A stretch of DNA of 64,000 bases from a bacterium (GTDB lineage: Bacteria > UBP7 > UBA6624): positions 248,001 through 312,000 of the forward strand of contig PBAU01000003.1 of the NCBI GenBank assembly GCA_002716355.1, read 5' to 3'. This document shows, in pieces, positions 700 through 15,934 of this stretch. Made by a program: the position numbers and the translations under genes. The notes below the pieces were generated by a model. That model was not told the DNA's origin. It saw nothing but the letters and a program-made list of their open reading frames with translations, and searched no databases. The stretch's first letter is position 1. The number at the start of each line of letters is the position of its first letter.

Positions 700-1215
700 T
701 TGAAGAAAATGGCAATTATTGGCACACAAATCACAATCGACAAAAATGGAAGATTTGTCGTCCCCTCTGATAAAAGAAGAATTTTTGACAATTCAAGAAA
801 TATCGTTATCGTTCTGGATGATGCAGATGAAATAAGACGAAGAGTTTTAATTTATTCTGGAAAAAGCCATTTAACTCATTTAAATCATCTAAGAAGCCTT
901 GCATCCAAAGGCTTTTTGACAAAATCTGGAGAAAGGTTGACAAAGGCAGAGAGCTTAAGGGTTGTTTCAATGTATGAAGAAAATGCTATTGTTAGAAGAA
1001 TAGATCCGTCTGGAAGGATGTCACTGCCTTTAGAGATTCTTGGATTAGCAGGGATTAAAGATATCGCGTACATTGGAGGAGTGCAAAGAATTGCGCTTTA
1101 TTCTCCTCCAATATGGAAACAACTTGTAGAGGAAAGAGAACATTTATTGAAATCTCTTAGCTACGAACAAAGAGTTGAATTGGCTGAAATACCTTTTGAA
1201 GGCCATGTTGAATAA
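700..1215 (+). CDS. mraZ: Transcriptional regulator MraZ
   Basis: MraZ is a ring-forming DNA-binding protein that regulates the division and cell-wall cluster it usually heads. Two SpoVT/AbrB-like halves are visible, each with the family DxxGR signature: DKNGR followed by FVVP near residues 14-22, and DPSGR followed by MSLP near residues 101-109. The 171 residues are somewhat longer than E. coli MraZ (152). The TTG start at 700 is the earliest in frame after the promoter; ATG at 709 is an alternative. Neither has a good Shine-Dalgarno sequence, which fits a nearly leaderless transcript. The usual next gene, rsmH, is absent. Confidence 0.9.
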   Translation: MKKMAIIGTQITIDKNGRFVVPSDKRRIFDNSRNIVIVLDDADEIRRRVLIYSGKSHLTHLNHLRSLASKGFLTKSGERLTKAESLRVVSMYEENAIVRRIDPSGRMSLPLEILGLAGIKDIAYIGGVQRIALYSPPIWKQLVEEREHLLKSLSYEQRVELAEIPFEGHVE

Positions 1216-1459: not shown

Positions 1460-2887
1460 TTGAATGTAAAAGAATTAATCTCCACGATTGATTGTCTGTA
1501 TCAAGGGGATCTGGATAGTCAAATTTCAAAAATAAAAGAAGATTCCAAAAAAGTACAAAAGAAAGATATATTTATAACGCATGCGGGCATACGCGCACAC
1601 GCAATAGAAGCACAAAGAAAAGGTGCATCAACAGTACTCACTCCAATATTCTTCAAAAACCTAAAGGTAAATCAGATAATTGGAGACACAGCAAAATTGA
1701 AAAAAGACTTAATGAAAAAAGTCTACAAAGAAGCAATCAACAATATGAAAATTATTGGAATAACTGGTACAGACGGAAAAACAACAACCTCACTGCTCAC
1801 AAATAGCATCATCAATCAATCAAAAAGATCAGCCTCTATAGGCACGTTGGGGGTAAGAGGCAATGATATAGACATCAAAACACAACTCACCACTCCTCAA
1901 GCTTCTGATTTACTAAATACTTTAAATAAGCTATACCAAAAAAAATACAAATATGCAACTCTTGAATGCTCATCACATGGCTTGTTTCAAGACAGGATAG
2001 ACCCAATCAAATTAGAAGCTGCTGCAATCAACAGAGTAACAAGAGATCATTTGGATTTCCACGGCAATCAAAAATACTACTTTAAAGCAAAATCTCTAAT
2101 TTTTTCAAAACTGAATAATGGATCACCTGCAATAATCAATTCAAGCTCTCCATGGCTTGAAGCTTTGCAAAAAAAATATCCAAAATTGAATTGGATAACA
2201 TGGGGTAAAGAAAAAGGGGATGTGGTTGGAAGGATAATTTCCAAAACATTAACAAGATCAATTATTCAGATAAATCTTCCTGAAAGGAAAAATATTGAAG
2301 TAGAAACAAGCCTTGTAGGTGATTTCCAAATAGAAAACATCCTTGCATCCATATCTTTATGCCATAGCCTTGGATTTTCTGAATCCGAAATCATAAATGG
2401 AATATATAAACTCAAAAACGTACCAGGAAGAATGCAAAAAATAAAAAATGAAAAAACAAATGTATTTATTGATTATGCTCATACACCAAACGCAATAAAA
2501 AATTCAATTAAATCGTTGAAAACTGTATGCAAAGGAAGAGTTTTTGCTGTATTTGGATGTGGTGGAGACAGAGACAAGGGAAAGAGGCCTGAAATGATGA
2601 AAGCAGGCATGAATGCAGATAAATTATTCATTACATCAGATAACCCAAGAACAGAAAATCCAGATTCAATAATTAAAGATATGTTAAGCCAATGCAAACA
2701 ACCAAAAGGAATTGAGATTGAGAAAAACAGGAAAAAAGCGATTAAAAATGCAATTCAATCAGCAAAAAAAGATGATGTTGTTCTTATTGCAGGAAAAGGT
2801 CATGAAGAGTACCAAATAATAGGCGAAACAAAAAAACCTCATAATGATCTACTTTTTGCTAAGGAGGTACTTGCAAGTTGCGCTTAA
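1460..2887 (+). CDS. murE: UDP-MurNAc-L-Ala-D-Glu:meso-diaminopimelate ligase MurE
   Basis: MurE adds the third stem-peptide residue to the UDP-MurNAc dipeptide in the cytoplasm. The 475-residue protein has the normal three-domain length. The ATP-binding GITGTDGKTTT is near residues 99-109, and the central domain carries HLDFHG. The C-terminal domain contains DNPRTENP, the motif that in characterised MurE enzymes goes with meso-diaminopimelate rather than lysine, so this cell probably makes A1-gamma type peptidoglycan. The TTG start at 1460 directly follows the stop codon of the small gene upstream. The 3' end overlaps murF by 10 nt. Confidence 0.95.
   Translation: MNVKELISTIDCLYQGDLDSQISKIKEDSKKVQKKDIFITHAGIRAHAIEAQRKGASTVLTPIFFKNLKVNQIIGDTAKLKKDLMKKVYKEAINNMKIIGITGTDGKTTTSLLTNSIINQSKRSASIGTLGVRGNDIDIKTQLTTPQASDLLNTLNKLYQKKYKYATLECSSHGLFQDRIDPIKLEAAAINRVTRDHLDFHGNQKYYFKAKSLIFSKLNNGSPAIINSSSPWLEALQKKYPKLNWITWGKEKGDVVGRIISKTLTRSIIQINLPERKNIEVETSLVGDFQIENILASISLCHSLGFSESEIINGIYKLKNVPGRMQKIKNEKTNVFIDYAHTPNAIKNSIKSLKTVCKGRVFAVFGCGGDRDKGKRPEMMKAGMNADKLFITSDNPRTENPDSIIKDMLSQCKQPKGIEIEKNRKKAIKNAIQSAKKDDVVLIAGKGHEEYQIIGETKKPHNDLLFAKEVLASCA
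2861..2868 (+). promoter_or_regulatory. Ribosome binding site deciding the murF start
   Basis: AAGGAGGT lies inside the end of murE, 9 nt before the TTG at 2878. The nearer TTG at 2871 is in another frame, so this site fixes murF translation at 2878. Confidence 0.75.
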
Positions 2888-4239
2888 CACCCCAAAACAT
2901 AATAAAAGCTCTAGGTAAAAAGGGGAGCGGACGGATACCGCCTAGCAATCTTTACATCACAAATGATTCAAGAAAAGTAAAAGAAAATTCTTTATTTGTT
3001 GCAATGAATGGCAAAAAAACAAATGGTAAAAAATTTATCAAACAAGCAATACAAAAAGGTGCTTCAGCAATAATTTCAAATGAAAAACTAAACCTTGGGA
3101 AAAAGATATGGGTATTAAACCACAAAGACCCACAGACTGCATATGGAAAAATAGCAAACACAGCAAGAAAAGAATGGGGTGGGAATGTTATCGGGATAAC
3201 AGGCTCTATAGGAAAATCAACAATTAAGGATCTGACTGCAGCAGCGCTTGGGACAAATGAAGATGTTGCCGCTTCACCCTACTCTTTTAATAATGAAATT
3301 GGGCTTCCTTATTCAATACTTAATGCAAAAGGCACAGAAAAATACATGGTCCTTGAAATGGGTGCAAAAAACCCTGGAGACATCAACTATTTAAAAAAAA
3401 TTGCAGAACCAAACTGTGCAATCTATTCTTTCATATGCAACAGCCACGCAGAATATCTAGGCGGCATACAAGGAGTAATAAAAGAAAAGGGGTCATTAGT
3501 TTCTGGCTGGAAGGAGGATAAAAGCTTAGTGATATCGTCAAAAAACAATCATCACAGAGAAATATCAAAACTTTCATCTGGTGCAAAAATAATCAAATGG
3601 GGACCTGGAGAACAAATCGATTCTGAAGAAATCAAATTGGACAAATATGGAATTCCTAGTTTCAAAATTAAATACAAAAACAAAACATATAAAGTTAACT
3701 TGAGTTTGCCGGGTTCTTTCCAGGTTGGAAATTCTTTAGCAGCATTATCTGCAGCTATTAATTTCAATGTTGATTTAAATAACGCCATAACAAGAATAGA
3801 GAAAGTCAAACCTCTTCCACACAGGAAAGAAATACATGAAATTAGGAATGATGGAATTTTATTAGATGATTGCTATAACGCAGGTGCAAAATCAACAAAA
3901 GAAAGCATTAGATGGGCTTCTTCAATATCTGTTAAACGGCCAAAAGTAATGATACTGGGTGACATTCTAGAAACTGGCAATAATGAAATAAAAATGCATA
4001 AAGAAATCGGAAAAATAATTAAAGATAATCAATATTCTCAATTATTAACAGTTGGAAATTTAGCAAAACATGCATTAAAGGAATCAGGTATAGATGGTTC
4101 ACATTATCAGAAAATTGATGATCTTCTGAATGATTTAAAAAAATATGATTTTTCAGCAAAGGTCATACTTGTAAAAGGTTCAAGATCAATACGGCTTGAA
4201 AAAATTACAAAAAAAATTAGGGAGATTTTTTCTACGTAA
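2878..4239 (+). CDS. murF: UDP-MurNAc-tripeptide:D-Ala-D-Ala ligase MurF
   Basis: MurF completes the UDP-MurNAc-pentapeptide by adding D-Ala-D-Ala. At 453 residues it has normal length. The P-loop is GITGSIGKST near residues 106-115, with Ser where most family members have Thr. EMGAKNPGDI in the central domain and LDDCYNAG in the C-terminal domain are family motifs. It starts with TTG inside the end of murE, behind a perfect Shine-Dalgarno sequence, and is followed 3 nt later by mraY. No D-Ala-D-Ala ligase (ddl) lies in this window. Confidence 0.94.
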   Translation: MRLTPQNIIKALGKKGSGRIPPSNLYITNDSRKVKENSLFVAMNGKKTNGKKFIKQAIQKGASAIISNEKLNLGKKIWVLNHKDPQTAYGKIANTARKEWGGNVIGITGSIGKSTIKDLTAAALGTNEDVAASPYSFNNEIGLPYSILNAKGTEKYMVLEMGAKNPGDINYLKKIAEPNCAIYSFICNSHAEYLGGIQGVIKEKGSLVSGWKEDKSLVISSKNNHHREISKLSSGAKIIKWGPGEQIDSEEIKLDKYGIPSFKIKYKNKTYKVNLSLPGSFQVGNSLAALSAAINFNVDLNNAITRIEKVKPLPHRKEIHEIRNDGILLDDCYNAGAKSTKESIRWASSISVKRPKVMILGDILETGNNEIKMHKEIGKIIKDNQYSQLLTVGNLAKHALKESGIDGSHYQKIDDLLNDLKKYDFSAKVILVKGSRSIRLEKITKKIREIFST

Positions 4240-4242
4240 GAA

Positions 4243-5298
4243 ATGAACTTTTTCAACAAGCACTCTTTTTTTTATACATTGTGCTTTTTGATAATTTTCA
4301 ATTTCATACTTGACCAAAATCCACATAACAGTATTTATATAAGCGACAATTTTCCTAAGCTAAATTACCAAAATCTCTTAATCGGGATATTCATACTCGC
4401 AATATTTTCATTTAATTCATACTTAAAAGTTGCAGGCAGAAAAGGCTGGGGCCAATACGTAAGACGGGAAGGATTAAAAACACACTTGAAAAAAACAGGC
4501 ACGCCAACAGCGGCAGGATGGATATTTTTTGTGATGTCAATTGTCCCACTTTGTATTCTCTTACCCAATTTTCTAATGAATAAAAATATTTTATGGGTAC
4601 CCCTGCTAGCAATAACGGTGATGTTCCTGACTGGACTAATGGATGATCTTTACAAAATAAAAGGAACAAAGGAGGGTCTTCTTGCAAGATATAGGCTTTT
4701 AGCTCAATTTTTAGTTGGCTCTCTTTTAGGGTATTACTTCCTACCTTGGGATTTATATACCAACATAGCTGTTGGTTTCTTATTGTTTGGTACTGCCGTC
4801 AATGGTATTAATTTTACCGATGGATCTGATGGTCTTCTGGCGGCAGTTATCCTTGCAACACCAATTGGGCTTTTAATACTTTATGCCATCTCTCAAACCA
4901 TGGGAATAGGTTTTCCTATCGTAAGCTCTAAGTTTGTTTTTGTTTTATTGGGTTTACTAATGCTCTCATGGATTCCTTTCAATAAATATCCTGCTAAATT
5001 ATTCATGGGTGAAACTGGCTCCTACACAATTGGAGCAATAGTAGGCTTCGTTGCAATATATTCACTACAAAGCGAACCGATAATTACTTTTCTGCTGCTC
5101 TCTGTACCGATTTTCCAAATTGCAACTGTTGTAATTCAGGTTTTCTTTTATAAAAAATTTGGCATAAGGGTATTTCTGATGGCTCCATTTCATCATCATC
5201 TTGAAAAAAAAGGATGGAGTGAAAACAAAATAGCCTACTCAGCTTTCTTTTTTCAATTGCTTTTAACTGTTTCTCTAATAGGGAGTGTTACCTACTAA
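4243..5298 (+). CDS. mraY: Phospho-N-acetylmuramoyl-pentapeptide transferase MraY
   Basis: MraY transfers phospho-MurNAc-pentapeptide to undecaprenyl phosphate in the inner membrane, giving lipid I. The 351-residue protein has about ten hydrophobic segments. Recognisable motifs are GTPTAAG near residue 86 (usually GTPTMGG), the catalytic-type MDDLYK near residue 130, NFTDGSDGL near residue 188, and APFHHHLEKKGW near the C-terminus. murD starts within its stop codon. The next enzyme, MurG, is not encoded nearby, although it normally lies between murD and murC. Confidence 0.95.
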   Translation: MNFFNKHSFFYTLCFLIIFNFILDQNPHNSIYISDNFPKLNYQNLLIGIFILAIFSFNSYLKVAGRKGWGQYVRREGLKTHLKKTGTPTAAGWIFFVMSIVPLCILLPNFLMNKNILWVPLLAITVMFLTGLMDDLYKIKGTKEGLLARYRLLAQFLVGSLLGYYFLPWDLYTNIAVGFLLFGTAVNGINFTDGSDGLLAAVILATPIGLLILYAISQTMGIGFPIVSSKFVFVLLGLLMLSWIPFNKYPAKLFMGETGSYTIGAIVGFVAIYSLQSEPIITFLLLSVPIFQIATVVIQVFFYKKFGIRVFLMAPFHHHLEKKGWSENKIAYSAFFFQLLLTVSLIGSVTY

Positions 5299-6488
5299 TG
5301 AAAACGCTTGTTTATGGCATGGGTATAAGTGGCAAATCCACTGCTGAGCACTTAAAAAGAAAAAGGGAAGATTTTGTTGTTTATGACGATAACAAAAAAT
5401 CAAAAAAATACACCAATTGGAATCAAGATCTTTCTGGGATAAAAACAATAGTGGCTTCTCCTGGGATACCTTCTACGAATACGATTTTAAAAAAAGCTCA
5501 AAATCTGAACATACCAATACATTGCGACATTGGTCTTGCATCTTTTGAGAAGAAACTACCAAAAATAATTTCTGTAACTGGCACTGCTGGAAAGACAACA
5601 CTTGTCAGCCTACTTGTCGATGTTTTAAATGCAAATGGAAAAAAATCAATAGCATTAGGGAACTATGGTCTTTCCCCATTGGATATACTGAAAAGCAATT
5701 ACGAATACTGGGTCATAGAAGTTTCAAGTTTTCAATCAAAAAGACTCGCCTTTTTAAAACCAAACATAGGCATTTATTTAAATCTTTCTCAAAACCATCT
5801 TGATTGGCATGAAACGATTGAAGATTACAAAATTTGCAAAGGAACAATCTTCAAGAACCAAGATGCTGATGATTTGAGAATAGTAAATTCTGATCTTGAA
5901 AAAAAATACATCAAAGGCAAAGCAAAAGAAAAAGAAATAAAGAAAAATGAATTTTCAAATTTAAGAAAAGATATTCATGAAGACACCTTGTCTACTGTTG
6001 GCTTATGCATAAAAGAGTTAAACCTGAATCACGAAATAGCCAAGCAGTCAATCATTAATTTTAAGACGTTAATGCATAGGTATCAAAAAATAACTACAAA
6101 TGATGGGATCCATTGGATTAATGATTCAAAAGCAACAACCCCTCTTGCTACATTAACTGCTATAGAGAGAACTCCTGTTGGATCAATAGTCCTAATGGGT
6201 GGAAGTGACAAAGACCTTGACTACAAAAAAACATTAAAGAAAATAAAAAATAAAAAAATGAAATTAATACCATTTGGTGGTATATCCCATGCATTACACA
6301 AAGAAGCAAGCAAGCTTTCAGTAGATTCATCAAAACCATGTAATTCATTAGAAAAAGCAATTCAAAAAGCAAAAAATAACGGAAAAGGAAAAACCATACT
6401 GCTATCGCCAGGAACAGCAAGTTTTGACGAGTTTACAGGCTACGCACAAAGAGGAATGTACTTTATCGAAAAAATAAAAGGAGGTTGA
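5298..6488 (+). CDS. murD: UDP-MurNAc-L-alanine:D-glutamate ligase MurD
   Basis: MurD adds D-glutamate to UDP-MurNAc-L-Ala. The protein has 396 residues against about 440 in E. coli, with shorter loops. A Rossmann-type N-terminus (YGMGISGKS) is followed by the P-loop VTGTAGKTTL near residues 93-102; the usual Asn before Gly-Lys is Ala here. QNHLDWHE and a late GTASFDEFTGYAQRG are typical. Its ATG overlaps the mraY stop by one base, and its end contains the murC ribosome site. ftsW and murG, which usually follow murD, are missing. Confidence 0.93.
   Translation: MKTLVYGMGISGKSTAEHLKRKREDFVVYDDNKKSKKYTNWNQDLSGIKTIVASPGIPSTNTILKKAQNLNIPIHCDIGLASFEKKLPKIISVTGTAGKTTLVSLLVDVLNANGKKSIALGNYGLSPLDILKSNYEYWVIEVSSFQSKRLAFLKPNIGIYLNLSQNHLDWHETIEDYKICKGTIFKNQDADDLRIVNSDLEKKYIKGKAKEKEIKKNEFSNLRKDIHEDTLSTVGLCIKELNLNHEIAKQSIINFKTLMHRYQKITTNDGIHWINDSKATTPLATLTAIERTPVGSIVLMGGSDKDLDYKKTLKKIKNKKMKLIPFGGISHALHKEASKLSVDSSKPCNSLEKAIQKAKNNGKGKTILLSPGTASFDEFTGYAQRGMYFIEKIKGG
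6478..6484 (+). promoter_or_regulatory. Ribosome binding site deciding the murC start
   Basis: AAGGAGG at 6478-6484 touches the TTG at 6485 but lies 6 nt before the ATG at 6491. The ATG is therefore the likelier start of murC. Confidence 0.7.
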
Positions 6489-6490
6489 TT

Positions 6491-7897
6491 ATGGATAGTC
6501 AAAAAAACATACACTTTATAGCAATGGGGGGAAGCGGAATGGAGCCTCTTGCAAGATGGTGCGCAGAAAAAGGATATAAAGTTTCAGGTTCTGATATTTC
6601 AGAAAAATCAGTAAAAAAACTAAATAAACTTGGTTTCAACTGCAAGCTTAAACACTCTGAAGATAATATTCCGAGCGATTGCAATCTTGTTGTTTATTCC
6701 AACGCAATACCAGAAAACAATATAGAGGTTCAAGAGGCAAAGCAAAGAAACATAACAAGATTACATAGACCAATATTTCTTGCAAAACAATTTAACAAAG
6801 CAGAAAAAAGAATAGCTGTAACTGGAACTCATGGGAAAACAACAACAAGCTCTTTGATATCGTGGATTGTGTATAAGTCCGGAAGGGATCCTAATGTTCT
6901 CATTGGTGGAGAAATGCTTAACTGGAATGCTGGCTATAAAGTTGGAAGAAATAACTATTTTGTTGTTGAGGCAGATGAAAGTAATCCTGAATTTGTAAAT
7001 CTTGATCCAACAACACTTGTTCTAAACAATCTAGATTGCGATCACATGGACACATACAGAACAATGGAAAATCTTGAAAGATACATTACGGATTACATAA
7101 CAAGCCGTGATGAAAAATGCAATTTCGTAATGCCTAGAGAAAAAGGATTAGGAATGTCAAGAATACTTGAAAATAGTTCAATTAGACCGGGCAGCATCAT
7201 CACAACAGCTTTAATCGAAGACGACAAAGAACTTGGTCAAGGAAGCATGGCTGACAGAGCGTTGCTGGAGGGAAAAATAATCAGCGAAGGTGAAAGAGGG
7301 ATGCTAATGAGAGTTTTGTATTATGGCCTTCCATTAGGTGAATTCTTTTTACCTCTTTCAGGAAAGCATAATGCAAGAAATGTTCTTTCAGCAATTGGTG
7401 CATGCTTGACATTAGGGATGGATGAAAATGAAATTTATGAAGGCTTAAGGTCTTTTAAGGGTGTAGGCAAAAGAATGGAAAAAATTGGCGATACTGTTAT
7501 AGGTGAAATTTTTTCAGATTATGCACATCATCCTACAGCTCTTAGAGAAACACTAAAAAGTATTAAAAATAAATATAAAAATAAAAAAATTGGAATCGTT
7601 TTTGAGCCACATAGGTACACAAGATTGCAAAAAACACATGAACAATTTTCAAATGTTTTAAACTCTTTTAAATTCAATCAAAAACTAATATTGCCAATTT
7701 ATACAGCAGGAGAGAAAAAAATTGATGGAATAAGCAGTGAACTGCTTGTAAGAAAAAATCCTGACTGCCAATTGGTAAAACAAGAAGACATAATTGAAAA
7801 TCTTGAAAATGGTGAAAATGATATAGTCGTATTTTTAGGAGCAGGAAGCATACATAAAATTGCTCATCAAACATTTAAACTTTGTCAAATTAACTAA
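6491..7897 (+). CDS. murC: UDP-MurNAc:L-alanine ligase MurC
   Basis: MurC adds the first amino acid of the stem peptide to UDP-MurNAc. The protein of about 468 residues has the UDP-binding HFIAMGGSGMEPLA at the N-terminus, the canonical VTGTHGKTTT P-loop near residue 114, VVEADESNPEF in the central domain and FSDYAHHPTALRET in the C-terminal domain. An Mpl recycling ligase is less likely because of the cluster position and motif set. I prefer ATG 6491 over TTG 6485 because of ribosome-site spacing. The stop codon overlaps the murB start by one base. Confidence 0.92.
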   Translation: MDSQKNIHFIAMGGSGMEPLARWCAEKGYKVSGSDISEKSVKKLNKLGFNCKLKHSEDNIPSDCNLVVYSNAIPENNIEVQEAKQRNITRLHRPIFLAKQFNKAEKRIAVTGTHGKTTTSSLISWIVYKSGRDPNVLIGGEMLNWNAGYKVGRNNYFVVEADESNPEFVNLDPTTLVLNNLDCDHMDTYRTMENLERYITDYITSRDEKCNFVMPREKGLGMSRILENSSIRPGSIITTALIEDDKELGQGSMADRALLEGKIISEGERGMLMRVLYYGLPLGEFFLPLSGKHNARNVLSAIGACLTLGMDENEIYEGLRSFKGVGKRMEKIGDTVIGEIFSDYAHHPTALRETLKSIKNKYKNKKIGIVFEPHRYTRLQKTHEQFSNVLNSFKFNQKLILPIYTAGEKKIDGISSELLVRKNPDCQLVKQEDIIENLENGENDIVVFLGAGSIHKIAHQTFKLCQIN

Positions 7898-8766
7898 TGC
7901 TACAAAAATTTAAAAACTTTGATGGTAAAAATCTAACCACCTTCAAAATTGGTGGAAAGATCGGAAAACTCCTTATTGCATCAAATATAAAAGAACTAAA
8001 AGAAGCAATTCAAATTCTTTCAAATGAAAAAAAATGGCTGATTTTAGGTGCTGGAAGCAATATTTTAATGTCAGACAAAGGGCTAGATGGGGCAATAAAG
8101 CTTAAAGGAGATTTTTTAAAAATTACACATCATAAAAACCTAATATCCTGTGGTGGCGGAGCATTTGGATCAGCAGTAGTTAAATATGCTGAAAATCAAT
8201 CCCTATCTGGAATAGAACCATTTTCAGGACTGCCGGGAACCGTTGGCGGATGGATAGCAACAAACTGCGGCCCAAAAGAAATGAACATTATCGATATACT
8301 GGAATCAGTTACAGTCATAAATAAAAAAACACTTCGGATAAAAACACTTCGGAAAAAAGATTTTGACTATAGTTACAGATACTGTTCGCTAAAAAATCAA
8401 TACGGAATAATCAATGTCAACTTCAAATTGAGGAACAAACAAAAAGAAGAAATAAAACAAAAAAATAAAAAATATATGAAGTACAGATTGTCAACACAGC
8501 CTAAAGGAAGTTCTGTAGGTTGTATATTCAAAAACCCTAAAGGTAAATCAGCTGGAAAGATAATAGATTCATGTGGCCTTAAAGGGTTTAAAATGAAAAA
8601 TTTACAAATTTCAAAAACACATGGAAACTTCATAATAAATCAAGGAAAATCAAAAGCTGAAGATGTATTTGAAATGATAGAGCTTATCAAAAAAAATGTA
8701 TTTTCAAAAACAGGAATAAGGCTAACTGCTGAAGTCGAAAAAATAGGACATTTCAAACATGAATGA
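7897..8766 (+). CDS. murB: UDP-N-acetylenolpyruvoylglucosamine reductase MurB
   Basis: MurB is the FAD/NADPH enzyme that reduces UDP-GlcNAc-enolpyruvate to UDP-MurNAc. FAD-binding signatures LGAGSNIL near residue 51 and GLPGTVGGWI near residue 108 are clear, as is YSYRYCSLK. The length of 289 residues fits the shorter MurB class. In VGCIFKNP the residue aligning with the catalytic Ser of E. coli MurB is Cys209, a substitution that keeps a proton donor. The next gene starts within its last codons (8 nt overlap). Confidence 0.93.
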   Translation: MLQKFKNFDGKNLTTFKIGGKIGKLLIASNIKELKEAIQILSNEKKWLILGAGSNILMSDKGLDGAIKLKGDFLKITHHKNLISCGGGAFGSAVVKYAENQSLSGIEPFSGLPGTVGGWIATNCGPKEMNIIDILESVTVINKKTLRIKTLRKKDFDYSYRYCSLKNQYGIINVNFKLRNKQKEEIKQKNKKYMKYRLSTQPKGSSVGCIFKNPKGKSAGKIIDSCGLKGFKMKNLQISKTHGNFIINQGKSKAEDVFEMIELIKKNVFSKTGIRLTAEVEKIGHFKHE

Positions 8767-9757
8767 TAACTTATTTGGAAAACAAGAAAAAAACAAACTA
8801 GACATAAATGTAAAAATTATTGCTTTAGGAGGTGCAGGATGCAAAATATTAAAAAGGATTAATAGCAGATTGCATAAAAACATTCAAAAGGATGCAATAG
8901 ACACATCAATATCAAGCTTAAACAATCTTTCAGAAGATATCAAAAAATACAACGTAGCAACAGATAGATATGGAGGAAAAGGTACTGATTGTGATTATTA
9001 TGGATTAAAAGAATACCTCGTTGAAGACAGGATGGAAAATATAAAAATTGAAAAAACAGAAAATATTGATTTAATAATTTTTATATCCTGCTTGGGCTAT
9101 GGCAGTGGGTCAGCAATTCTTCCATGGGCGCTTGAACAGCTAGAAGAATCATTGGACCAACTTGGAAGAAAAACAATCAAACTAGGTTTTTTTATCCAAC
9201 CTGCAATAAATGAAAACCCTGACTCTTTAGAAATAATTGACGACTCTTTGAAGCATTCAAATGAAAAACTTGATTCCTACTTGATGATATCAAACGATAA
9301 ACTCTATTCAAATTTTCAAGGAACATTAGAAGATGCCTTGCATAAAGCTGATTCTTGCCTTATGGAAATTATTGACTTAATTATTAAAAATAATTACAAC
9401 ACCATAAATCTAGACAAGGCAAACATACTGGAGTTTTTTAGAAATGCAGGGCAAATACATTTCGGACAAGGAAAATCAAAAGAAGAAACAATGATACATA
9501 TGGCTATTGAAGAATCATTTGAGGGGGCGTTGTTAAGACCATTGCCAATAAACAAACCTCCCCGTAGGGCTTTATGCTGGATAAATGGCCCTCCAATTAG
9601 TGCTTGCCTGCATCAAGAAATAGTGGAAAGCATATCCTCAAGACTATCCCCTTCCATTAATGGAAAACAAGGAAAAGTTAACATATCAATAAATACAATG
9701 AATCAAAAAATGGTCGAAATACACCTGATGCTAAGTAGCAAACAGAGAATTGCATAA
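8759..9757 (+). CDS. Divergent, tailless FtsZ/tubulin-superfamily protein
   Basis: The 332 residues can be aligned by eye with FtsZ over the whole core. A glycine-rich ALGGAGC loop (residues 22-28) matches T1. CLGYGSGSA (111-119) matches the GGGTGTG tubulin signature but has lost two glycines. SNDKL (178-182) matches FtsZ PNDKL. NLDKAN (217-222) matches the T7 loop NVDFAD, with the second catalytic Asp replaced by Asn222. The chain ends right after the core, with no flexible linker or conserved C-terminal peptide for FtsA, ZipA or SepF. The position after murB and before yggS is a normal ftsZ site. It may be the cell's only FtsZ, a paralogue, or a protein with weak or no GTPase activity; the sequence cannot decide. 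Confidence 0.8.
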   Translation: MNDNLFGKQEKNKLDINVKIIALGGAGCKILKRINSRLHKNIQKDAIDTSISSLNNLSEDIKKYNVATDRYGGKGTDCDYYGLKEYLVEDRMENIKIEKTENIDLIIFISCLGYGSGSAILPWALEQLEESLDQLGRKTIKLGFFIQPAINENPDSLEIIDDSLKHSNEKLDSYLMISNDKLYSNFQGTLEDALHKADSCLMEIIDLIIKNNYNTINLDKANILEFFRNAGQIHFGQGKSKEETMIHMAIEESFEGALLRPLPINKPPRRALCWINGPPISACLHQEIVESISSRLSPSINGKQGKVNISINTMNQKMVEIHLMLSSKQRIA

Positions 9758-9758
9758 A

Positions 9759-10349
9759 ATGATAATACCTCCAAGTGTAAAAATTGTTGCAGCTGTAAAA
9801 AACAGAAACGACTTAGAGTTAGAAAGAATCTATTCAAAAGGTATAAATAATTTTGGAGAAAACAGATTACAAGAACATTTAAATAGATCCGAAACAATTA
9901 AAAATAAAAATATACATTGGCATTTCATTGGAAGAATTCAAACGAATAAAATTAAAAAAATATCTAAAGAATTCAAGTTCATACATTCAATATCTAGATT
10001 TTCAGAAATTAAACAAATATCAAAATTAGGACCACCATATCCAATATGCTTGATTCAAGTAAATCTAGGTGATGATTCAAAATCAGGAATCAAGCCAACA
10101 GAACTAAAGCCTTTATTAGACATGACAAAGGAGGAAAATCCAAAACTACCAATCAAAGGCCTAATGACAATGCCTCCTTATACAACAAATCCAGAAGAAA
10201 ATAGAATGTGGTTTAGAGAGGTAAAAAAATTGGGGTATGAAAATTTCAAAAAACCATTATTATCCATGGGAACGACTCAAGATTGGAAAATAGCAATATC
10301 TGAAGGTTCAAACATCATAAGACTGGGGAGAAAAATTTTTGAATTCTGA
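9759..10349 (+). CDS. yggS: YggS-family pyridoxal phosphate homeostasis protein
   Basis: YggS/PLPBP proteins bind pyridoxal 5'-phosphate without known catalysis and balance vitamin B6 and amino acid pools. The PLP-binding Lys lies in VAAVKNRN near residue 13, and NNFGENRLQEH, WHFIGRIQTNK and GLMTMPPYT are family motifs. At 196 residues it is about 30 shorter than usual: the N-terminal helix before the first strand is missing. I chose ATG 9759; a TTG at 9750, overlapping the ftsZ-like gene, adds only three residues. yggS beside ftsZ is a common arrangement in other phyla. Confidence 0.88.
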   Translation: MIIPPSVKIVAAVKNRNDLELERIYSKGINNFGENRLQEHLNRSETIKNKNIHWHFIGRIQTNKIKKISKEFKFIHSISRFSEIKQISKLGPPYPICLIQVNLGDDSKSGIKPTELKPLLDMTKEENPKLPIKGLMTMPPYTTNPEENRMWFREVKKLGYENFKKPLLSMGTTQDWKIAISEGSNIIRLGRKIFEF

Positions 10350-11124
10350 ATGGATTGAACATTTAATACTTGGTTTGATTCAGGGGATTACAGAATTTCT
10401 ACCAATTTCATCTACTGGCCATCTTGTGCTTATAAGAAACTTTTTTGGAATAAACCCAGAATCAAATTCTGCTATTTTAACCATATTACATCTTGGAACA
10501 CTTTCAAGCCTGCTTGTTGTTGAAGGCAAAAATTTAACTAAAATGATATTATCTAAACATCCATTTCGCAATATTGAGTTCCATGCAATATTCATAACAA
10601 CACTTGCAACTTTAATTTTCTACTTATCTTTTCAAAATTTATTCGAATCAAGCTTCCAGGATGCAGGAAGCGTTGCGATAGGTTTAGTTTTCACTGCATT
10701 TATTTTAGTTTACGCAGAATTAAGAAAATCAAAATCATTTAAAAACCTGAGACATACGACCTTTTTAGACTGGATTGCAATAGGTTTCTTGCAGGCAGTT
10801 GCAATCATACCTGGGGTCAGTAGATCTGGAGCGACAATAGCTGGAGGATTACTTATTGGCATGAATAGATATGATTCAGTTAAATTCTCATTTATGCTAT
10901 CAATACCAGTGATACTAGGAGCTACTTTGATAAAACTGGAAAATATAGAATCGTACATTACTGCTAATCCAGGACCTGCAATATTGGGATTTTTGACTGC
11001 TTTTACATTCGGAATATGGGCAATGAAATTCATGTTAAATTATGTCAAAAAAAATAAACTTGAACCATTTGCTATATATTGCTTGATATTAGGATTCCTT
11101 TCAATATTGGTGGTAAGCAGATGA
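10339..11124 (+). CDS. uppP: Undecaprenyl-diphosphate phosphatase UppP (BacA family)
   Basis: UppP dephosphorylates undecaprenyl diphosphate at the membrane so that the lipid carrier can be reused by MraY; it also gives bacitracin resistance. The 261-residue protein has the two active-site motifs, QGITEFLPISSTGHL at residues 14-28 and PGVSRSGAT near residue 156, with about eight membrane spans. It starts with TTG and overlaps the yggS end by 11 nt. Its stop overlaps the ftsK start as ATGA. Confidence 0.94.
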   Translation: MNSEWIEHLILGLIQGITEFLPISSTGHLVLIRNFFGINPESNSAILTILHLGTLSSLLVVEGKNLTKMILSKHPFRNIEFHAIFITTLATLIFYLSFQNLFESSFQDAGSVAIGLVFTAFILVYAELRKSKSFKNLRHTTFLDWIAIGFLQAVAIIPGVSRSGATIAGGLLIGMNRYDSVKFSFMLSIPVILGATLIKLENIESYITANPGPAILGFLTAFTFGIWAMKFMLNYVKKNKLEPFAIYCLILGFLSILVVSR

Positions 11125-13121
11125 GACTAAAAATCAACCTAGAAACTTTTTTGATTTTGTTTGTCATGTATCACACAATTGCAACAACGACACAAATACT
11201 CGATCCACTATCAGAAAACTATAGAGAGTTATTTATTTCTTTATGGGGTAAAAAATCATGGATTTATCCTTTAATTCTTGTTTATCCCATCCTAAATTCA
11301 ATCAATGAAAAAAAATTCATTAGACTTCTTTTGGTTCCCTGGCTATTTTTACTTCTTGGATCTGGAAGTGATTCTGGCATATGGGGAAAAAACATTTATT
11401 CTTTTGTCCGGAGCATAATTGACAATGAAGGAATAATAATGCTAAATATATTTGCCTTCATTTCAATTGGTATTATTTACTTTAATTTACACGAACATGT
11501 AAAAAATGCTTTTCAAGATTTGCATAAAAAAAATAGCTTTGAGAAAGATTTCAATTCTGGCAATTTTGAAAAAGATTATGAATCATTGAAAAAATCTAAA
11601 ATAACAACAAGCACCCTAGTGAAGAAAGATACAAAAAAGAAAATTACTCAAAAAATAAAAATCCAAAAAAATGATAAAAAAACTACTAAAAAGCACGAAG
11701 GCAAGCCAGTAACAAAAGGCTACCATATACCAATAGAACTTTTACATAAACCAGAGCCAGTAATAGAAATGGGGGTGCAGGAAGTCAAAGATATGGCTGA
11801 GACGATTATAAAAACCTTAAAAGATTGTGCTGGATCTGAAACCTTTTATGAAAGCTGTGCTCAAGGACGTTCTGTTGTAAGGTTTGAATTCAGAGTTTCT
11901 CCATCGGCAAATTTATCAAAAATAAGAAGTTCTGCAGAAAATATTGCAGTAGCTATTGCAAGCGTAGGAAAAGTCAGAATAGAAGCGCCTGTTATTGGCA
12001 AAAGCACCATAGCTGTAGAAATACCTCAAAGAAATAAATCGATTCTGAGATTAAGCGAAGTTATAAAAAATCAAAAAAACGCTAATGGTTTAAACTTCAT
12101 AATGGGAGCCCAGGTAGATGGAAGTCTATTTAATGTAGATTTAGCGGCATTACCGCATATGCTAATCGCAGGGGCAACACAATCGGGAAAATCAGTTTTT
12201 GTAAATACATTATTGTTAAATTTAATATACAACAAAAGCCCAAAAGAACTGAAGCTAATACTTGCCGATATGAAAAAAGTTGAACTAACCCTCTATAAAG
12301 ATATTCCTCACCTTTTAGTCCCGATTGTTTCAACCCCAGATCCAGCATTAAATGCATTAGATTGGGCAAGAATGGAAGTTGATCGCAGATACGAGCTGCT
12401 AGAAGAATCCAAAACAAAAAATTTAGAAGAATACAACAAAAAAACTAAAAACAAACTTCCATACATAGTTATAGTCTTAGAAGAGCTTTCAGCACTTTTA
12501 ATAACATCCAAAAACAGAGTAATAGAGTCCTTGTCTGACCTTTCAGAAAGAGCAAGAGCAGCAGGAGTTCATTTAATTGCAACAATGCAAAGACCCGATT
12601 CAAAAAAGCTAGATGGGTCTGTTAAAGCTAACCTCCCTGGGAAAGTTAGCTTCAGATTAGGGACAAGATCTGACTCAATAACAGTTTTTGGCAAAGGTGG
12701 AGCGGAAAATCTTCTAGGCAGAGGAGACCTTTATTTCGATAGTCCAACACACCCTGAGTTAATAAGGTGTCAGGCTCCATTGGTAGAAACAGAAGAGATA
12801 GAAAAAGTGCTTAATTATCTAATTAAAAATTATGGTGAAGCTGAGTATGACAAATCAGTTGAAGGTGAAGTGATCACACCAATAGATGAAATTAATGACG
12901 ACATTTTAGATGGTATGTCAAGCACCGATCGTCAACTAATCAATGATATTAGACAAAGAATCAAAGATGAAGATGCAATAAGCGTGAGTCAGCTTCAAAG
13001 ACTTTTTGGTATTGGATACAATAAAGCATCGAGAATGATGATGATAATGGAGCAATTAAATTGGGTTCATCAAGACCCAAATACATCAGCAGGGAAAAAA
13101 GGATGGGTAGTTGATTTGTGA
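11121..13121 (+). CDS. ftsK: FtsK/SpoIIIE-type DNA translocase
   Basis: FtsK is a septal membrane-anchored motor that pumps chromosomal DNA during division and activates terminal recombination. Starting at ATG 11121 (coupled to uppP as ATGA), the 667-residue protein has about four N-terminal membrane spans, a Lys-rich linker of about 60 residues, the motor domain and a C-terminal winged-helix gamma domain. Walker A is GATQSGKS (351-358), with Gln where Gly is usual. Walker B reads IVLEELSALL, so the usual Asp-Glu pair is Glu454-Glu455. ATMQRPD and GRGDLYF are intact. An earlier TTG at 11079 would put unrelated residues before the first helix and is less likely. Confidence 0.93.
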   Translation: MRLKINLETFLILFVMYHTIATTTQILDPLSENYRELFISLWGKKSWIYPLILVYPILNSINEKKFIRLLLVPWLFLLLGSGSDSGIWGKNIYSFVRSIIDNEGIIMLNIFAFISIGIIYFNLHEHVKNAFQDLHKKNSFEKDFNSGNFEKDYESLKKSKITTSTLVKKDTKKKITQKIKIQKNDKKTTKKHEGKPVTKGYHIPIELLHKPEPVIEMGVQEVKDMAETIIKTLKDCAGSETFYESCAQGRSVVRFEFRVSPSANLSKIRSSAENIAVAIASVGKVRIEAPVIGKSTIAVEIPQRNKSILRLSEVIKNQKNANGLNFIMGAQVDGSLFNVDLAALPHMLIAGATQSGKSVFVNTLLLNLIYNKSPKELKLILADMKKVELTLYKDIPHLLVPIVSTPDPALNALDWARMEVDRRYELLEESKTKNLEEYNKKTKNKLPYIVIVLEELSALLITSKNRVIESLSDLSERARAAGVHLIATMQRPDSKKLDGSVKANLPGKVSFRLGTRSDSITVFGKGGAENLLGRGDLYFDSPTHPELIRCQAPLVETEEIEKVLNYLIKNYGEAEYDKSVEGEVITPIDEINDDILDGMSSTDRQLINDIRQRIKDEDAISVSQLQRLFGIGYNKASRMMMIMEQLNWVHQDPNTSAGKKGWVVDL

Positions 13122-14065: not shown

Positions 14066-15148
14066 ATGAAAAAAACATTAATAATTATTTTTACATCTTT
14101 GATTTTCTCTTCATGCGGGAAAGTCAATAACGAACACACCCTGCTCTATCTTGTCAATGAAAGGCCAGATGAAGTTGTTATAGTTGACACATCTGATCAA
14201 AAGGTTATCAACAGATTCATGGCTGGAGAGGGCTTGAATGATTTAACTCTTGTTCCAGATCAAGGAATAGGGTTTATAGCAAATCAACATGGCGGTGTAA
14301 TATCTGTTGTTGATTTAAACATGGGGACATTAGAAAGTGAAATACCCACAAATGGCTTCCCTTTACATTTAACCAGTCCTCCTTCTGGAGAAAAAGTTTA
14401 TGCAACTATAGCAAACCCGGAAACACTTCAAGCAAATGAAGTAAGTGTTTTTTCTGTTAGCTCTTCATCTTTTATTGAATCAATACCGATAGGAAACACA
14501 ATAAACAATATAGAAATACATCCTGATGGAAAAACTCTTTATGCCACAAGGGCAAATACTGCAATGCTATTTCTGGTTGACACAACTAAAAAAACAATAA
14601 GAAAAGAAAAAGTTTTGTCTAATTCTCCTGCAGCAATGGCTGTAAGTCCAGATGGGAAATATATTGCTCTGGCTTTAACGCAGACTGACACAGTTCAAAT
14701 ATATGACCAAAATGCAGAAGATTTAATATTCTCCATACCTGTAGGTGATGCTCCAAGAGCAGTAACATTTTCAGATGATGGAAAATTAGTTTTAGCTGCT
14801 GACATGAGAACAAGATTTGTTCATATCGCAAAAACTGAATCAGGAGAAATTATTGGAAAAATAAAATTTGATATGGCTCCAACAAATTTAAGAGTGGTTA
14901 ATGGAAAAGTTTGGGCTACAGTCAAAGCTCCTTTTATATTCGGGGCAGACCTTGAAAGCTTGGAGATAACAGACAAAATACATCTAAACTCTATACCTGT
15001 TACATTTGAAGCAATAGCTCCTAACAAACTCTCATCAAATAATACTGATTCTGGTTTGCCAATAACTGAAATTGCTATATTTTTAGTTATTTTTTATCTT
15101 ATAAAAAAAGCTAAAAAACGAGAAAAGAAAGAAAAGGAAGGAAAATAA
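14066..15148 (+). CDS. Beta-propeller (YVTN/YncE-like) lipoprotein with C-terminal membrane helix
   Basis: The N-terminus has a short Lys-rich start, a hydrophobic core and the lipobox SSC at residues 17-19, so it should be exported and lipidated. The body consists of repeated seven-bladed-propeller motifs with D-G-K turns (HPDGKTLYA, SPDGKYIALA, SDDGKLVLAA), as in YncE-like proteins. Near the C-terminus an apolar stretch (ITEIAIFLVIFYLI) is followed by a strongly basic tail, which looks like a membrane anchor with a cytoplasmic end. Two anchors on one protein would hold it at the inner membrane. The next lipoprotein gene follows directly. Binding partner unknown. Confidence 0.75.
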   Translation: MKKTLIIIFTSLIFSSCGKVNNEHTLLYLVNERPDEVVIVDTSDQKVINRFMAGEGLNDLTLVPDQGIGFIANQHGGVISVVDLNMGTLESEIPTNGFPLHLTSPPSGEKVYATIANPETLQANEVSVFSVSSSSFIESIPIGNTINNIEIHPDGKTLYATRANTAMLFLVDTTKKTIRKEKVLSNSPAAMAVSPDGKYIALALTQTDTVQIYDQNAEDLIFSIPVGDAPRAVTFSDDGKLVLAADMRTRFVHIAKTESGEIIGKIKFDMAPTNLRVVNGKVWATVKAPFIFGADLESLEITDKIHLNSIPVTFEAIAPNKLSSNNTDSGLPITEIAIFLVIFYLIKKAKKREKKEKEGK

Positions 15149-15934
15149 TTGAATAAAGAAATAGGAATATTCCTTCTATTAGCTCTTAGTTCCTGTTCAG
15201 GCTCTCAGCCAACTAGCGCTAGAGTTCCATCGGCTGCAACAAGCACAAAAAATAGACCTCCAGTTATCGAAAGTCTAGAAACAAGTCCAAAATTTGTTTC
15301 TTTTTCAGGTGAAGCAACAACAAGAGCAATAGCTTCGGATCCAGATTTTGACAGATTGGATTTTCTATGGGAAATTACAGGCGGAAAAATCCTGGAAGGT
15401 AAAAACACCCCTTTTGTAAAATGGAAAGCTGATGAAGGTTCTGAAAAAATAAACATAAAAGTCACAGTAAAGGATTCAGATGGTTACAAAGAAGAAAATC
15501 TTGAATTAAAACTTACGAAAAAAAATCTTTTTCTTGAAGAGAAAAAACCTGAAAAAGAAAAACATGGTGAAGAATATAAAATTTTTCTAAAAACAATCAA
15601 TATCGATTCCTTTAGCATGTCCAACATTCAGATTAATTACCCTTCTGAAAAAATAAAATTAAAAAATATTGTCTTTAATGGTTTGGAAAAAAAAGATCAT
15701 GAAGATTGGTATTCGATCATAGATGCTTCAAAAATAGGAAAAATAAAAATAACCCTCCTCCCGAAAGGGGAAAAAGAAAAAAAAGGAGGAAAGATTGCCA
15801 CGGTTAATTTCATCTTAAGGGATGATTCTTACCCTTTGATTAATGATTTTTCCTTTAAACAAACCGGAAAAGAAATAGGATTTTGGAATAAAGTTAAAGA
15901 AATTATTCCAGTAGCCTTGTCAAATCCAAAATAA
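15149..15934 (+). CDS. Predicted lipoprotein with PKD-like domain
   Basis: It starts with TTG immediately after the stop codon of the propeller gene. A signal sequence ends in the lipobox LSSC (Cys near residue 16). Residues 38-115 resemble a PKD or Ig-like fold (SDPDFDRLDFLWEITGG, then VKVTVKDSDG-type strands). The second half, about residues 140-225, has a beta-rich pattern that loosely recalls cohesin-like modules, ending in VNFILRDD; this is a weak resemblance. It is probably an envelope protein that works with the propeller lipoprotein. No specific function is recognised. Confidence 0.65.
   Translation: MNKEIGIFLLLALSSCSGSQPTSARVPSAATSTKNRPPVIESLETSPKFVSFSGEATTRAIASDPDFDRLDFLWEITGGKILEGKNTPFVKWKADEGSEKINIKVTVKDSDGYKEENLELKLTKKNLFLEEKKPEKEKHGEEYKIFLKTINIDSFSMSNIQINYPSEKIKLKNIVFNGLEKKDHEDWYSIIDASKIGKIKITLLPKGEKEKKGGKIATVNFILRDDSYPLINDFSFKQTGKEIGFWNKVKEIIPVALSNPK

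Follow-up and report, generated by a model that had tools for sequence, protein, structure and literature searches.

GTP-driven treadmilling and tail-mediated anchoring are held to be central to FtsZ, and the FtsW-FtsI pair to the septa of walled bacteria. In C. difficile, a class A PBP builds the vegetative septum without the canonical FtsW/FtsI pair (PMC10693644), and Chlamydia divides without FtsZ via MreB and FtsK, according to two reports (PMC7029139, PMC11975371). Spiroplasma, a member of the Mollicutes, uses SepF (PMC11987601). FtsZ-like 1 proteins (FtsZl1; Tubulin_2, PF13809) are ~1000 amino acids long, contain coiled coils and keep the signature GGGTG(S/T)G (PMC2875224). In S. aureus FtsZ, the substitutions D46A, R143Q, N208L, D210N and D213N each abolish assembly, and Q48A and R143K lower GTPase activity about six-fold and stabilise straight filaments (PMC8936486).

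The UBP7 locus described here lies in a stretch of 64,000 nucleotides (the window) taken from a 367-kb contig; the genome measures 1.26 Mb and is 86.6% complete. As in C. difficile, a canonical FtsW/FtsI pair for division is lacking and PBP1, PBP2 and RodA remain; C. difficile, however, keeps dcw-encoded SpoVD/SpoVE and conserved divisome parts that act in sporulation, whereas UBP7 has no dcw SEDS-PBP pair whatsoever. Chlamydia is likewise a walled lineage with a reduced divisome, MreB and FtsK, but UBP7 is its mirror image in retaining an FtsZ relative without the septal synthase pair. In the Mollicutes (Mycoplasma, Spiroplasma), too, FtsZ is found with a division cluster that is very short, but these cells lack a wall, whereas the Mur pathway of UBP7 is complete. 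FtsZ-like 1 is another divergent member of the tubulin superfamily, but the window protein fails the Tubulin_2 model.

Residue changes in a tailless FtsZ relative

The gene, a divergent and tailless ftsZ (8759..9757, + strand) recognised by its translation, PF00091, AlphaFold2 (AF2) model and dN/dS, starts with ATG, encodes 332 amino acids and has 8-base overlaps with murB (5′) and yggS (3′). Its product matched the Pfam Tubulin family PF00091 with 45.8 bits (E 1e-11; cut-off 33 bits) and scored 56.3 bits against the FtsZ equivalog TIGR00065, for which the cut-off is 295.2 bits. The protein has a tubulin fold and is nearest to FtsZ. An AF2 model built with 14 sequences (pLDDT 76.9, pTM 0.82) aligned with S. 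aureus FtsZ at Z 30.4 and rmsd 3.1 over 299 residues (VIA-align), and the best 50 Foldseek matches to the model were all FtsZ (E ~1e-22, TM ~0.75).

In E. coli and S. aureus FtsZ a linker and a C-terminal peptide follow the core, whereas the UBP7 chain ends about five residues past the last core strand (319-327 in the AF2 model). The peptide for FtsA, ZipA or SepF is absent in all three UBP7 species, whose chains stop at the core, and the FtsA or SepF partner was not found in their genomes. The nearest named records are the UBP7 MAG UBA7824 (93% identical protein) and the MAG NIOZ-UU106 (35%), the latter from another genus of the same family, with a GC content of 52% versus 33%. The sister species (L003/L056) has a tailless protein of 332 amino acids and the second genus (L057) one of 340 with a GTG start, both at the equivalent locus and in independent assemblies. 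A sequence-only reading of this DNA had described an FtsZ homologue in the ftsZ position with a changed GTPase signature and no C-terminal tail, and had proposed structure prediction as a check; PF00091, the T4 and T7 residues, the gene order, the predicted fold and the independently assembled relatives all bear this description out.

Alignment showed that nucleotide-binding elements are partly kept. The T1 phosphate loop GGAGC (residues 24-28; 8828..8842, this and all following features on the + strand) is intact, as is the guanine-pocket Asn in Asn179-Asp180 of SNDKL in T6 (9293..9298), and the T1 glycines, E138, N165 and the first T7 Asp, D209 (E. coli numbering), are shared by ordinary FtsZ and all three UBP7 proteins. 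Other sites differ from ordinary FtsZ. In the T2 loop, D48-T-S50 (8900..8908) places Asp and Ser at E. coli N43 and D45, sites that are Asn and Asp in 26/26 ordinary FtsZs. Instead of GGGTGTG, the T4 tubulin signature reads CLGYGSG (residues 111-117; 9089..9109), a form restricted to the window genus, and SLGGATG in the second genus; in the alignment its last glycine is replaced by Ala in all three proteins. Ser156 (9224..9226) occupies the site of the catalytic Arg (E. coli R142, S. aureus R143; role in PMC8936486). The NxDxxD pattern of the T7 synergy loop is lost, with N217-L-D219-K-A-N222 (9407..9424) in the window protein, where Asn222 stands for an invariant Asp (E. coli D212, S. aureus D213), and EIDPGH in the second genus. 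Common to all three proteins are the missing tail, the lost second T7 Asp and the changes N43 to Asp, D45 to Ser, Q47 to Ser/Asp, R142 to Ser/Ala and D212 to Asn/His; D45, Q47, R142 and D212 are inter-subunit active-site residues.

These departures lie far outside the range of ordinary FtsZ. In an alignment of 26 FtsZs (25 from different families plus E. coli), 32 positions are invariant in all 26, of which 15 differ in the window protein and 13 in that of the second genus; ordinary FtsZs, each left out in turn, depart at 0-2 positions, with a single outlier at 7/39. BLASTP against E. coli FtsZ gave no match for the window protein, versus 167-321 bits for the 25 other FtsZs. MurC, MurD, MurE, MurF and MraY from the same operon match their E. 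coli counterparts (27-34% identity, 99-202 bits), which indicates that the change is specific to FtsZ.

Four of the six sites mutated in S. aureus are replaced in every UBP7 protein, the Asp to Asn change at 213 being identical in the window protein, and the N208 site is additionally replaced in the second genus. Since loss of D46, R143 and D213 should abolish assembly by the S. aureus data, filament formation in UBP7 is not to be assumed. These replacements leave two possibilities, a rebuilt subunit interface or a protein that has stopped assembling in the usual manner.

We give an even chance to the reading that the UBP7 bacterium has this gene as its sole, resident ftsZ, altered far beyond the FtsZ norm while the remaining divisome shrank. 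A less probable, somewhat unlikely reading is that no division filament exists and that the protein is a GTP-binding (or GTP-shaped) scaffold or regulator tied to the Mur/uppP/FtsK operon, division being carried out by MreB-directed wall synthesis, FtsK or other means, as in the FtsZ-less Chlamydia. The loss of residues required for assembly in S. aureus is consistent with this, as is the presence of MreB, an MreCD-like pair, PBP2 and one SEDS protein. However, both genera retain the guanine-pocket residues and D219 of T7, and the T7-H8-S8 stretch, which contacts the next subunit in FtsZ, is about as conserved between the genera as the rest of the protein (41% versus 35%). Purifying selection on ftsZ (dN/dS 0.045 versus the sister species) is also as strong as that on its essential neighbours (range 0.044-0.143; lgt 0.044, uppP 0.051, uvrA 0.057, ftsK 0.077).

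A stripped division cluster

Both genera share the order mraZ-(rsmH)-murE-murF-mraY-murD-murC-murB-ftsZ-yggS-uppP-ftsK, followed by lgt. In the window, mraZ (700..1215) is separated from murE (1460..2887) by a 244-bp gap at the expected site of rsmH-ftsL-ftsI, and rsmH lies divergently just upstream of mraZ. Next come murF (2878..4239), mraY (4243..5298) and murD (5298..6488), with murC (6485..7897) directly following murD and no ftsW or murG in between, and then murB (7897..8766), which overlaps ftsZ by 8 bases and leaves no place for ddl, ftsQ or ftsA. Downstream of ftsZ are a PLP enzyme of the yggS (ylmE) family (9750..10349; TIGR00044, 134.6 bits), uppP/bacA for undecaprenyl-diphosphatase in the same operon (10339..11124) and the DNA translocase gene ftsK (11079..13121; PF01580/PF17854/PF09397), with hydrophobic N-terminal segments by hydropathy; ftsK is a retained divisome gene, close to ftsZ in both genera. 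In many phyla yggS is a frequent downstream neighbour of ftsZ and sepF is often nearby; no sepF lies near this yggS.

Compared with the E. coli cluster, both genera lack ftsL-ftsI 5′ of murE, ftsW-murG between murD and murC, and ddl-ftsQ-ftsA 5′ of ftsZ. An FtsA reading frame lies within ~1.5 kb of ftsZ in 22/27 sampled ordinary bacteria. The sequence-only reading had noted that FtsA is missing from the cluster, which holds and extends to all three genomes, where nothing scored above the cut-off; it overlooked the loss of ftsL, ftsI, ftsW and ftsQ from the cluster.

In the second genus one orphan ORF of 272 amino acids (L057:9181-9999, +) is inserted between murB and ftsZ, at the ftsQ/ftsA site and with 8-base overlaps with both genes. 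It matched no Pfam family, reached a probability of 0.1 in hhalign against an FtsA profile and gave an AF2 model of pLDDT 34 without an alignment; the window genome has nothing equivalent between murB and ftsZ. Beside lgt, at window positions 14066-15934 and at the same place in the second genus, is a conserved pair of putative lipoproteins, one a beta-propeller-like repeat protein and one starting SGSQPxxAR.

Family searches of the three genomes returned no FtsA above the cut-off, the best matches being MreB and two open frames of ~600 amino acids, probably DnaK/HscA by size, and they found no SepF, POTRA_1/FtsQ or ZapA. The genome search for FtsA and SepF that the sequence-only reading had suggested therefore recovered neither, in three incomplete genomes. 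The same searches of the three genomes found one SEDS protein, whose scores against RodA (165.9 bits) and FtsW (163.8 bits) do not separate the two, and we call it RodA because a second copy is absent. The single class B PBP scores as MrdA (363 bits) and is encoded beside mreB in the window genome, and the single class A PBP is PBP1A. Between mreB and the class B PBP gene are three small ORFs (L044:5323-6820; 204, 179 and 119 amino acids) without a Pfam match, at least two of which have N-terminal or multiple hydrophobic segments; presumably they are very diverged mreC/mreD. The murG gene, which completes the wall pathway, sits elsewhere in the genome beside a MurJ-like gene. A 29-kb contig of the window genome (C12; L159, G000) with the order eno-ftsB-amidase-murI-folC-rho carries a DivIC/FtsB-like gene (55 bits); the GC content of this contig (27.6% versus 32-37%) and its outlying tetranucleotide profile indicate that it is probably a contaminant in the MAG.

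All three genomes are MAGs (86.6, 78 and 62% complete) representing two independent lineages, which could suggest that the absent divisome genes went unassembled along with an ordinary FtsZ and that the 332-amino-acid protein is a second copy. We consider this improbable, as it requires that a canonical FtsZ, FtsA, SepF, FtsQ and FtsW/FtsI pairs were each missed by all three independent assemblies (~1% for any one gene with randomly placed gaps), and in both genera the dcw cluster is contiguous on a single contig without those genes.

Family, flanks and selection

A PF00091 search gave one match above the cut-off in each of the three UBP7 genomes, so that the whole-genome search for a canonical FtsZ proposed in the sequence-only reading yielded none besides this gene. 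The gene is single-copy and lies 3′ of murC-murB, the dcw site after murB that it shares with bacterial FtsZ, and its flanks, murB on one side and yggS/uppP/ftsK on the other, indicate a resident dcw-type ftsZ and not an imported paralogue. Being the sole PF00091 protein, with ancestral flanks in two genera, it lends no support to the earlier alternative that a paralogue without a role in division had taken over the former ftsZ site.

The idea that a known side family (FtsZl1/Tubulin_2, CetZ, TubZ or PhuZ) moved into the ftsZ site is very unlikely. Similarity to Tubulin_2 amounts to 12 bits in the T1 loop only, below the 27-bit cut-off for PF13809, and a profile search of solved structures favoured FtsZ (up to 77 bits) over CetZ2 (38), CetZ-type entries (30 and 18.5) and TubZ (15, not significant). 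Searches of phages and plasmids yielded no closer relative. The profile and fold searches group the protein with FtsZ and not with CetZ or TubZ, and this speaks against the suggestion that it could form a new tubulin-superfamily group.

The second UBP7 genus, and only that genus, also encodes a 1062-amino-acid Tubulin_2 (FtsZ-like 1) protein (L160:468-3656 on contig C8 of G002; 128.6 bits), followed by genes for a 759-amino-acid protein and a 447-amino-acid membrane protein. A horizontal origin of the window gene from a phage or plasmid tubulin was rejected, with no close relative among phages, plasmids and IMG/VR. IMG/VR contigs (L068-L133) carry many viral FtsZ genes; representatives are ~310 amino acids long and consist of the core only, without the C-terminal peptide and with a normal GTPase core, and these may be phage division modulators.

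That the gene is a pseudogene decaying from an FtsZ-based past, as might be suspected from the many positions, constant in ordinary FtsZ, at which its residue has been lost, is refuted by its dN/dS of 0.045, its full-length frame in three species and its preserved start/stop overlaps.

A possible minimal divisome

Of the two options in the sequence-only reading, a reworked Z-ring without the normal anchor is the better and is our candidate reading. Most likely the protein belongs to a minimal divisome as a derived FtsZ whose GTPase activity is weak or absent, a slow or passive scaffold acting by a mechanism that we infer as follows. The UBP7 FtsZ would still bind GTP and, at the division site, would form filaments or patches that are slow or do not hydrolyse it. 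Its tether would not be a C-terminal peptide with FtsA, SepF or ZipA but another contact, perhaps of an NLFG segment with a protein in the membrane, for example FtsK, which is encoded nearby. NLFG (residues 4-7; 8768..8779, +), a candidate short linear motif, is identical in all three UBP7 proteins and sits within an otherwise variable, low-confidence N-terminal extension (pLDDT <50, AF2); as a motif it is weak, because only two independent lineages share it. NLFG and the adjacent FtsK are therefore guesses at the membrane anchor, drawn from three sequences.

By analogy with C. difficile, the septal wall might be made by PBP1A, by the single RodA-PBP2 pair or by both, no other synthases having been found, although septal genes could fall in the missing parts of genomes that are 62-87% complete. 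We propose, tentatively and with doubt prevailing, that the UBP7 phylum is walled and divides with a tubulin-type filament lacking standard GTP hydrolysis and a C-terminal tether, without FtsA, SepF, FtsQ, FtsW or FtsI, and makes its septum with the elongation synthase, a class A PBP or both. Such a minimal divisome, if true, has not been described before. A lineage with a full peptidoglycan pathway, an altered FtsZ and an apparently dropped FtsW-FtsI would reveal which divisome parts are dispensable, would make UBP7 a natural test of FtsZ as a slow or passive scaffold, and would extend the C. difficile finding of septa without FtsW/FtsI to a distant uncultured phylum.

A three-sequence profile run against the genome contigs recovered nothing beyond the other two UBP7 species except one fragment of an ordinary FtsZ from Bacteroidota. 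In a tree of 29 FtsZs, a fully supported stem of great length leads to UBP7, and long branches make its placement among phyla impossible in this tree. The ordinary FtsZ closest to UBP7 (L005, G029) differs at 7/39 invariant positions and keeps all its catalytic residues and the C-terminal peptide; it is possibly an intermediate or a long-branch effect.
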